From Deltaproteobacteria bacterium (lineage in GTDB: Bacteria > Myxococcota > SpSt-1050): 34,182 bases of DNA. The stretch is taken from positions 1 to 34,182 of the forward strand of contig JAOAFA010000008.1 in assembly GCA_026416535.1 (NCBI GenBank), given 5' to 3'. The notes under the pieces are model-generated. The model saw nothing but the letters and a program-made list of their open reading frames with translations, was not told where the DNA came from and made no database searches. Shown one piece after another: positions 18,281 to 34,182 of the stretch. The stretch's first letter is position 1. Every line of letters starts with the position of its first letter. Made by a program: the position numbers and the translations under genes.

Positions 18281-19057
18281 ATGATAAAAGATGATTTTAG
18301 CAGACTTGTAAGTGTTGTTAATAGATTACTTTCAAAAGATGGTTGTAAGTGGGATAAAAGTCAAGATTTAAAATCGCTTAGAGGATTTGTTTTTGAAGAG
18401 GTACTGGAGCTCATTGATGCACTTGAAAGAGAAGACATAAATGACATAGAAGAAGAGATAGGTGATATACTCTATCACATAGTTTTTATTTCAAAACTGA
18501 CCAAAAGAAAAGACTCTCTCAAAAAGGCCATTACAAGGATTACAGATAAGCTAATTAAGAGACATCCACACGTCTTTATGAATAAGAAAGATATGACTCC
18601 AACAGAAGTGGTTAAAGAATGGGAAAATATAAAGAGAGAAGAGAAGAATACTGAATCCATAGGTTATGGATTATTCCCTTTTTTATCATCGCTACTCATT
18701 GCATACAAGTTGGGTGTAAGGTCTAAATCGTTTAATTTTGATTGGGAGAACGTTGAACAGATATTTGAAAAACTTGAAGAGGAGATAAATGAATTAAAGT
18801 TGGAGTTGAAAAAGAAGAGAAGAAATAAGGATGCTATAGAATCAGAGATAGGAGACGTCCTATTTGTAATAGCTAACATAGCGAGGCACTTAAATATAAA
18901 TCCGGAGATAGCCCTTATGAACACAAATAAAAAGTTTATAGGTCGGTTTGATAAGATGAATCAGCTTATAAAAACGGATAAGAAAGATATACGAAATCTT
19001 AGCATTGAAGAACTCGAATTTTATTGGCAAAAAGCAAAAAGGATTAAGTCTTTTTAG
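18281..19057 (+). CDS. mazG: Nucleoside triphosphate pyrophosphohydrolase MazG
   Basis: A 258-residue cytoplasmic enzyme that removes pyrophosphate from NTPs and dNTPs and is linked to nucleotide-pool cleaning and stringent-response control. The length matches E. coli MazG (263). Two all-alpha MazG domains are visible. The first has CKWDKSQDLKSL, FEEVLEL (Glu39, Glu40, Glu43) and EEEIGDILYHI (Glu58, Asp62). The second (about 135-240) has LEEEINELKLEL and ESEIGDVLFVIANIARHL. It begins eight bases after the regulator stop and ends 14 bases from a convergent lipoprotein gene with no terminator hairpin between. Confidence 0.9.
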   Translation: MIKDDFSRLVSVVNRLLSKDGCKWDKSQDLKSLRGFVFEEVLELIDALEREDINDIEEEIGDILYHIVFISKLTKRKDSLKKAITRITDKLIKRHPHVFMNKKDMTPTEVVKEWENIKREEKNTESIGYGLFPFLSSLLIAYKLGVRSKSFNFDWENVEQIFEKLEEEINELKLELKKKRRNKDAIESEIGDVLFVIANIARHLNINPEIALMNTNKKFIGRFDKMNQLIKTDKKDIRNLSIEELEFYWQKAKRIKSF

Positions 19058-19071
19058 CTTTTGCTGTAATA

Positions 19072-19338
19072 TTATTTAAGGTGTGGATTAAGTACCTCTA
19101 ATGCCGCTGTCTCTTCAACACATGTAGCTGTGTTATCCTCGTTGTAGTTGCATCTCTTGATTACTGACTTCCCCTTGTTACACCCCAGAATTAACCTACA
19201 TTCACCTTCCCAATATGTAAAGTATACATAGTCCTTTTCCCATCTGGTATGGGTGATACTCCTGACTGTAGTGCCGCATGCTGAAATAAATACTACTAAA
19301 AGCGATATCGCAAATATGAATATGATCTTGTTTTTCAT
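19072..19338 (-). CDS. Small lipoprotein 4 of the tandem array
   Basis: An 88-residue lipoprotein; signal peptide with lipobox ISAC (Cys21). The mature part is about 68 residues with two Cys pairs, including a C-terminal CX9C (KRCNYNEDNTATC). Together with the three upstream genes it forms an array spaced 13-16 bases apart. AGGAG upstream of the ATG gives the ribosome site. No known family recognised; function unknown. Confidence 0.7.
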   Translation of the reverse strand: MKNKIIFIFAISLLVVFISACGTTVRSITHTRWEKDYVYFTYWEGECRLILGCNKGKSVIKRCNYNEDNTATCVEETAALEVLNPHLK

Positions 19339-19353
19339 GATAAAGCTCCTTCC

Positions 19354-19632
19354 TTAGTATAAAGAACGAGGATTGACATTTTCTAAAATCAGTGTGTCTT
19401 TGCAATTTTCTTCCTTATTGTCTGGAGTTAGATTACAGATTCGTAAGTAGTAATTGAAAAGTCTTACATTTTCTTTGCCCGAACTAACAGTGTCGGTCCT
19501 GGGTAGCATTAAGAGTTTAGCAGTCTTGTTTTCACCCATAAACTCATTTGCTATCAAGACCTTCTTAGGTGCACAAGAGACAGCAAACAAAGATATTATA
19601 ATAAGGATGGTAACAATCAATGTGCGATTCAT
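19354..19632 (-). CDS. Small lipoprotein 3 of the tandem array
   Basis: A 92-residue lipoprotein with lipobox AVSC (Cys20). The mature part contains a C-terminal CX10C pair (ICNLTPDNKEENC), the same spacing as in the first gene of the array. AAGGAGG lies before the ATG. It sits 15 bases upstream of the last array gene and 13 bases downstream of the preceding one. Function unknown. Confidence 0.7.
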   Translation of the reverse strand: MNRTLIVTILIIISLFAVSCAPKKVLIANEFMGENKTAKLLMLPRTDTVSSGKENVRLFNYYLRICNLTPDNKEENCKDTLILENVNPRSLY

Positions 19633-19645
19633 ACCAGTATCCTCC

Positions 19646-19939
19646 TTATCTTACATTGGTTGTTAGGTTCATTAAACCTGTGGGACAACTTACATCTGTA
19701 TTGCCATCGCAGGCCCTCTCACAAGAGATTACATCGCCCCTCTCTTCACATGTCCAGAATTCATGTACGGCAGAGCCCGGGAATAATAAGTAGTGAGTTG
19801 TCTTGAAGGTCTCAAAATTCATAATAGGTCTTGTTAGGTGATCGTCGGCCCCAATTATTCTTCTACTTGTGCAGCCAGTTATAGTTAGTATGGAGTATAT
19901 TAGTCCCAGTGTTATTAGTAAAGTAATTACTCTTTTCAT
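19646..19939 (-). CDS. Small lipoprotein 2 of the tandem array
   Basis: A 97-residue lipoprotein with lipobox ITGC. It shares with its neighbours a basic residue and hydrophobic strand soon after the lipid cysteine, and ends in WTCEERGDVISCERACDG, a CX8C pair followed by more cysteines. AAGGAGG seven bases before the ATG is the ribosome site. I recall similar tails ending in a Cys pair in Myxococcota-like proteins, but cannot name a family. Confidence 0.7.
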   Translation of the reverse strand: MKRVITLLITLGLIYSILTITGCTSRRIIGADDHLTRPIMNFETFKTTHYLLFPGSAVHEFWTCEERGDVISCERACDGNTDVSCPTGLMNLTTNVR

Positions 19940-19955
19940 ATTGGTGCCTCCTTTT

Positions 19956-20183
19956 TTATTCTTTTAGTTCTACTTTGATGTTACGGCAGTTTGAGAGAGC
20001 CCCGGCAGCCCCTACATCACATTTAATAATTCCCTGTTCATCTTTATCATCCCATATAAATTTCACTGCCCCTTGCCTCCCAGTTGATCCAACTATTAAC
20101 CTGGGACCAGCACAGGCAGAAAAGATAGAGATCAGAAAGATGAACAAAAGACACAACTGAATTACTTTTCTAAATCCGTTCAT
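19956..20183 (-). CDS. Small lipoprotein 1 of the tandem array
   Basis: A 75-residue lipoprotein, the promoter-proximal member. Lipobox FSAC; the mature part includes GPRLIVGSTGRQGAVKFIW and ends with KCDVGAAGALSNCRN, a CX10C pair. AAGGAGG precedes the ATG. It may be the founder of the array because it is shortest and closest to the putative promoter at 20242-20270. Function unknown. Confidence 0.7.
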   Translation of the reverse strand: MNGFRKVIQLCLLFIFLISIFSACAGPRLIVGSTGRQGAVKFIWDDKDEQGIIKCDVGAAGALSNCRNIKVELKE

Positions 20184-20241
20184 ACAAAAAACCTCCTTGT
20201 ACTAAATTGACGGGATTTTTCAAACCTCCACTAGTTTAGAA

Positions 20242-20270
20242 AGCCTAACCTTAATTTAATTATTAGTCAA
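20242..20270 (-). promoter_or_regulatory. Possible promoter of the small lipoprotein array
   Basis: On the minus strand TTGACT (20270-20265) is followed after 17 bases by TAGGCT (20247-20242). The -10 box matches only at T, A and the final T. Expected start near 20235, giving a leader of about 50 bases before the ATG at 20183, with AAGGAGG ahead of it. Confidence 0.3.
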
Positions 20271-20419
20271 GTTTAATCCATTGATTTTTTTATAATGCTT
20301 TATATATGTGTAAAAAGCATGGGAAAACTTGACCTTGGAAGAATTCCACTTTATAGATAATGACCAACTTCTCAAGTTACTCAAATTCTTAAAGAATTGA
20401 CTTAAATTAGAGATTTTCT

Positions 20420-20561
20420 TTGGTTCGGTCCCCTCGAGAAAATTCCCCTACTTAATACTTGTATAAAGGAAAGACAGATAGGGTTAAAATATGTACAATA
20501 AGTTAAATAAGTAACAACTAACTTGAGGCTTTTGCTTTTTAATAACCTTTCTCCGAACCAA
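20420..20561. ncRNA. Long-range stem, possible structured RNA
   Basis: TTGGTTCGG (20420-20428) pairs perfectly with CCGAACCAA (20553-20561). After an eight-base bulge (TCCCCTCG), AGAAA (20437-20441) pairs with TTTCT (20548-20552). The closed loop is about 106 bases and AT-rich. The paired bases are more GC-rich than their surroundings. Neither strand has a clear promoter, and no known RNA family was recognised; a 6S-like shape was considered but not supported. Confidence 0.3.
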
Positions 20562-20630
20562 CAAATAGTCCGTTACTAAAATTTTTGGGTGTTTTTGCTC
20601 ATAGTGGATAACCATTAAGTAACATCTGAT

Positions 20631-20816
20631 CTAAGGTATGGGGAGGTTCATTATTGTGTAAAAAACGTCGATATAGAATTGGAATGCTCTAATAAATCTT
20701 CCTCCTACAAACTGCCATACTACAAGAAATCCTACAAGTAATGAGAGGCTTACAAACATATACTCAGTGAGTGCCTGGCCTCTTTCTCCTTTTATTAGAG
20801 ACCTAATCCTTTTCAT
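20631..20816 (-). CDS. Flp-type prepilin
   Basis: A 61-residue type IVb prepilin. A short basic leader MKRIRSLIKGERG is followed by the cleavage site: after Gly13 the mature protein starts QALTEYMFV, with Glu at +5 and Tyr at +6 exactly as in Flp pilins. One hydrophobic helix follows and a 20-residue tail. It is last in the five-gene operon and its ribosome site GGAGAG lies within the end of the upstream gene, with which it overlaps by 14 bases. The rest of a Tad machine (TadA, TadB, TadC, prepilin peptidase) is not in the window. Confidence 0.8.
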   Translation of the reverse strand: MKRIRSLIKGERGQALTEYMFVSLSLLVGFLVVWQFVGGRFIRAFQFYIDVFYTIMNLPIP

Positions 20817-33288: not shown

Positions 33289-33927
33289 TTGAACTTTGTG
33301 CCCAATCGTGTATTCTTTACAAGAGGTGTAGGTAGACACAAGGAAAAACTTCAATCCTTTGAAATGGCGCTTAGAGATGCAGGGATTGAGAAGTGCAATC
33401 TTGTGCGTGTCTCTTCTATCTTTCCACCGAACTGCAAGATTATTCCTCGCTCAAGAGGGATTGCTGCTTTAAAACCAGGCCAAATTACCTATGTTGTGCT
33501 TGCGCAAAATTCCACAAATGAACCTAATAGGCTGATATGTGCCTCTATTGGCCTGGCAGTTCCTGCTCAAGGCGACCACTATGGTTATATCTCAGAACAT
33601 CATGGATATGGTGAGACAGAGAAGAAATCGGGTGACTACTCAGAGGATCTCGCTGCTACCATGCTGGCGAGCACATTAGGTATCCAGTTTGACCCCAATA
33701 CTGCATACGATGAGAGGAAAGAGATATACCGAATGAGTGGTAAGATCATTAAAACAAGGAATATAACTCAATCTGCAGAGGGAGACAAAAATGGGCTTTG
33801 GACGACTGTTGTGGCTGGTGCGGTGTTTGTCTTCATAGATGAAGAAGTAAAAAAGGAGCTTAAAAGTAAGATCCAAAGGAAGAAGATAGTAGAGCCAAAA
33901 ATAATCGCCATAACAGAGGAAAAATAA
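33289..33927 (+). CDS. pdaD: Pyruvoyl-dependent arginine decarboxylase
   Basis: A 212-residue enzyme that converts arginine to agmatine, first step of polyamine synthesis. It is made as a proenzyme and cuts itself between two serines, the second becoming the pyruvoyl group. The site is RVSSIFPP (Ser42-Ser43). [22 protein letters not shown] around 100-120 holds the acidic and basic active-site residues of the family, including Glu109. It is somewhat longer than the 160-180 of most archaeal and bacterial relatives, having a charged C-terminal tail. The TTG start is chosen because it follows GGAAGGAGGG by six bases. The agmatinase gene begins 15 bases after its stop. Confidence 0.9.
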
Positions 33928-33942
33928 TTTGCAAATCGACTA

Positions 33943-34147
33943 ATGTTTATTCCCTATAATTTTGGTGGATTTGAAAAGAGATATACTGAGTACGGGAAAA
34001 GCAAGGTTGTTGTCTTTCCTGTTCCTTATGATTCAACTCTTTCATATAGGACAGGCTCAAGAAATGGGCCATCCGCTATAATATCGGCTTCGAAGGCTCT
34101 TGAATTTTACGACATAGAACTCTCTACATCCCCATTCAGAGTAGGCA
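33943..34147 (+). CDS. speB: Agmatinase, N-terminal fragment cut by contig end
   Basis: The first 68 codons of an agmatinase (ureohydrolase family), which would convert agmatine to putrescine and urea. The N-terminus MFIPYNFGGFEKRYTEYGKS leads to VFPVPYDSTLSYRTGSRNGP then SAIISASKALEFYDIE, the standard substrate-loop start of the family. The metal-binding histidines and aspartates lie further on and are missing. From 34148 the sequence is adapter, so the frame must be ended at 34147. Its place behind the decarboxylase supports the arginine-agmatine-putrescine route. Confidence 0.85.
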
Positions 34148-34182
34148 CTGTCTCTTATACACATCTCCGAGCCCACGAGACC
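34148..34182. other. Illumina Nextera transposase adapter contamination
   Basis: 34148-34166 is CTGTCTCTTATACACATCT, the complement of the Tn5 mosaic end, and 34167-34181 is CCGAGCCCACGAGAC, the complement of the Nextera read-2 (i7-side) adapter. Position 34182 (C) would be the first base of the index or the end of the read. This is library sequence, not genome, and marks a premature end of the assembled contig. Confidence 0.97.

Follow-up and report, generated by a model that had tools for sequence, protein, structure and literature searches.

An untrimmed Nextera adapter at a contig end and the false tail it gives to an agmatinase gene

The last 35 bases of the window (the whole stretch of DNA analysed here, 34,182 bases in length) are almost certainly an untrimmed Nextera (Tn5 tagmentation) adapter, a synthetic sequence with no role in the organism. 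The window is the whole of contig C13 of a 2.96-Mb draft genome of 134 contigs. Four observations bear directly on this identification: the sequence identity of the terminal bases, their place and orientation, their recurrence across the assembly, and the break in homology where they begin. The sequence analysis brought up no evidence against the adapter explanation, and an adapter at a contig end is an ordinary, common laboratory artefact.

The terminal bases

Positions 34148-34181 on the plus strand are identical to the Nextera i7-side read-through adapter CTGTCTCTTATACACATCTCCGAGCCCACGAGAC (34 of 34 bases, 0 mismatches), and a single C follows at 34182. The final letters of the contig thus read ...TTCAGAGTAGGCA / CTGTCTCTTATACACATCTCCGAGCCCACGAGAC / C, and the first-pass annotation was right in describing them as the 34-base Nextera transposase adapter plus one base, and in the coordinates that it gave. 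The adapter comprises the Tn5 mosaic end (34148-34166, plus strand, 19 nt, exact match), the part that the transposase recognizes, followed by the synthetic i7-side primer arm CCGAGCCCACGAGAC (34167-34181, plus strand, 15 nt, also an exact match). Judging from the place where the index begins, the extra base at 34182 (plus strand) probably opens the i7 index. Set against the Illumina Nextera i7-side read-through adapter, the window is alike in all 34 bases, in orientation and in position at the end of an insert; there is no difference between the two, and the window carries one index base after the adapter. The 34-mer is a Nextera sequence, as are its i5-side counterpart and the mosaic end on its own. 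All three, and with the 34-mer the i7-side arm, are printed together as trimming targets (PMC6460022).

Elsewhere in the 34,182-base window there is no second match to the 34-mer at up to 3 mismatches, and at the same tolerance 100 shuffles of the window gave 0 matches. Given the base composition of the window, the chance of meeting the 34-mer is about 10^-21 per position. One further candidate, at 19107-19125, resembles the mosaic end with 3 mismatches; it has no arm, lies in a region without long open reading frames, and was taken as chance. The surrounding 1.7 kb (19057-20803) has no open reading frames of 100 aa or more and no Rfam match. Its short minus-strand frames include some that, by eye, resemble genes for small secreted proteins or lipoproteins.

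The interrupted agmatinase gene

The open reading frame that starts at 33943 matches the Pfam Arginase model (E = 1.4e-7) and the agmatinase model TIGR01230 (E = 8.4e-12). Together with the alignment to a homologue, these matches identify the 5' part of a speB-like agmatinase gene, with 68 genuine codons and the first base of codon 69 (33943-34147, plus strand). Directly upstream lies a complete gene for a pyruvoyl-dependent arginine decarboxylase (33289-33927, plus strand; Pfam PvlArgDC, E = 5.3e-62; NF009064 over its cut-off). The two genes, decarboxylase then agmatinase (33289-34147), form an arginine-to-putrescine pair that is kept in a genome of the same genus (G001), where the agmatinase is full length at 293 aa.

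The agmatinases of G001 and the window align through residue 68 (...RVG) and on to the A at 34147, with which the next codon (ATC) of the G001 gene likewise begins. Beyond residue 68 the G001 protein reads IHTTDELEP, and the window reads TVSYTHLRAHET, a false tail of 12 residues that arises because the frame stays open past 34147 into the adapter. The homology to G001 ends at 34147, and any annotation that runs to 34182 is wrong over its last 35 bases, as had been claimed from the sequence at the outset. The open frame is also what could be said for the view that these bases really encode the C-terminus of a divergent agmatinase and look like the adapter by coincidence. We regard this as practically impossible, given the per-position probability above, the normal continuation of the homologue from the same genus, and the recurrence of these letters at another 36 contig ends, where the longer copies run on into a primer arm.

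The remainder of the agmatinase is absent from this genome when searched for with the Pfam model and the G001 protein as queries. The missing part therefore most probably belongs to sequence that dropped out during assembly or binning, and the gene is not to be described as degraded. The first-pass annotation held that the adapter explains why the agmatinase gene has no end. This is correct for the false tail, for which the adapter accounts, but less certain for the break itself. Low coverage or binning loss could be other causes of the break and of the absence of the remainder from the bin.

Adapter ends and Tn5 target sites across the draft genome

A pattern search of the whole draft detected at least 13 nt of adapter at 37 of the 268 contig ends (37 copies of the first 13 nt, 34 copies of the exact 19-nt mosaic end). 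All 37 copies point outward from contig ends and start no more than 35 nt from them; there is no internal copy in the 134-contig assembly, and a reversed control pattern gave 0 matches. This is, for the assembly, the adapter search that the first-pass annotation had proposed as a check, and its statement that the contig was not trimmed is borne out, the adapter facing outward at a true contig end and recurring, with both arms, at 36 further ends. Examples of these are C1:1-19, C5:1-32, C39:41107-41136 and both ends of C118. Two adapter-started contigs (C1 and C9) share an identical 44-base stretch near their starts (L001:29-72 and L003:100-143), which is a repeat or a strain variant. No shared 9-nt end that would mark two adapter-ended contigs as coming from one tagmentation site was found.

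At 22 of the 37 ends the adapter is exactly 19 nt long, and at 3 it is 16-18 nt. The adapter goes on into the i5 arm at seven ends and into the i7 arm at five, so both arms occur in one assembly; the longest of all, at 35 nt, is that of the window. The i7 and i5 arms diverge after 19 nt, and the 22 ends of this length are what would be expected if the graph of an assembly made with untrimmed reads branches where the arms diverge. The route to such an end probably began with short library inserts that were read through into the adapter, which was left on the reads before assembly. From genomic DNA ending at 34147, the assembler would have carried the contig on through the mosaic end and i7 arm, and one base into the index, and the contig may have stopped there as the graph branched at the adapter.

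Tn5 has a target preference described as GNTYWRANC (PMC8224930), and we measured this bias over the nine bases that directly precede the adapter at each of the assembly's 37 junctions. C stands at position -1 in 18 of the 37 junctions (6.8 expected, p = 2.9e-5), and G at position -9 in 15 of them (7.0 expected, p = 0.0018). The score against the Tn5 consensus is 3.76 of 7 in register, compared with 2.27-2.97 when shifted. The 37 junctions thus lie at Tn5 target sites as a biased set, and it is as a set that they carry the evidence. The bias is no proof for the single junction of the window, which has A at -1 and alone proves nothing. Adapter junctions in GTDB genomes and IMG/VR contigs likewise show the Tn5 target pattern.

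The target preference at the junctions, and the derivation of the 19-nt mosaic end from Tn5, would also fit the end of a genuine Tn5/IS50-type transposon inserted in the agmatinase gene. Such an insertion is extremely improbable, and the primer arms refute it: a synthetic i7 arm comes after the mosaic end here and an i5 arm at other ends, and beside the mosaic end of the window there is no transposon body, only the primer arm and the end of the contig. All 37 copies, moreover, sit at contig ends; no internal copy with a transposon body exists in the assembly. No biological reading of the last 35 bases remains.

The same adapter in public collections and consequences for the draft

At least 120 stretches from GTDB contigs, and at least 120 from IMG/VR contigs, contain the exact 34-mer. 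Among the matches listed, 127 of 129 (GTDB) and 121 of 123 (IMG/VR) lie within 100 bases of the end of the stretch and point outward. In two of the four exceptions the adapter is followed by an index, Illumina flow-cell adapter bases and a tail that is poly-G or A-rich; in one it leads into an index and then a run of N. At one locus (L105, 3943-3976; JAOAJQ010000047.1, a Crenarchaeota MAG), the adapter and an 8-base index stand beside a run of N inside the contig, indicating a scaffold joined across adapter sequence. At another (L251, position 4953; IMGVR_UViG_2767802081_000001), the adapter is found mid-contig in a viral record, and the sequence that flanks it on either side looks ordinary; this may be a chimeric join. 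In addition, 41 phage records match some portion of the window's final 75 bases. The adapter is found at contig ends of unrelated organisms and is spread without any link to taxonomy, which is the distribution that a reagent would give.

Adapter contamination of public assemblies is screened for at NCBI with VecScreen (PMC10898089). The ends described here are like this known contamination in that adapter is kept at contig ends, with no difference in kind; what can be set against public-assembly contamination in general is the extent in this draft, 37 of 268 contig ends. Literature searches found no paper on the false peptide TVSYTHLRAHET and nothing specific that surveys the adapter artefact.

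The finding matters for data quality only. An open reading frame that reaches 34182 should be cut at 34147, removing the 12 false residues, and the same cut is needed at no fewer than 36 further contig ends of the assembly. Proteins that end in TVSYTHLRAHET but are unrelated would look falsely similar. The adapter ends mark exact breakpoints of the draft, and trimming followed by reassembly might lengthen or merge some of its 134 contigs and recover genes such as the agmatinase, an outcome to which we give somewhat less than even chances. It would be wrong to count the agmatinase among the genes that this organism has lost.
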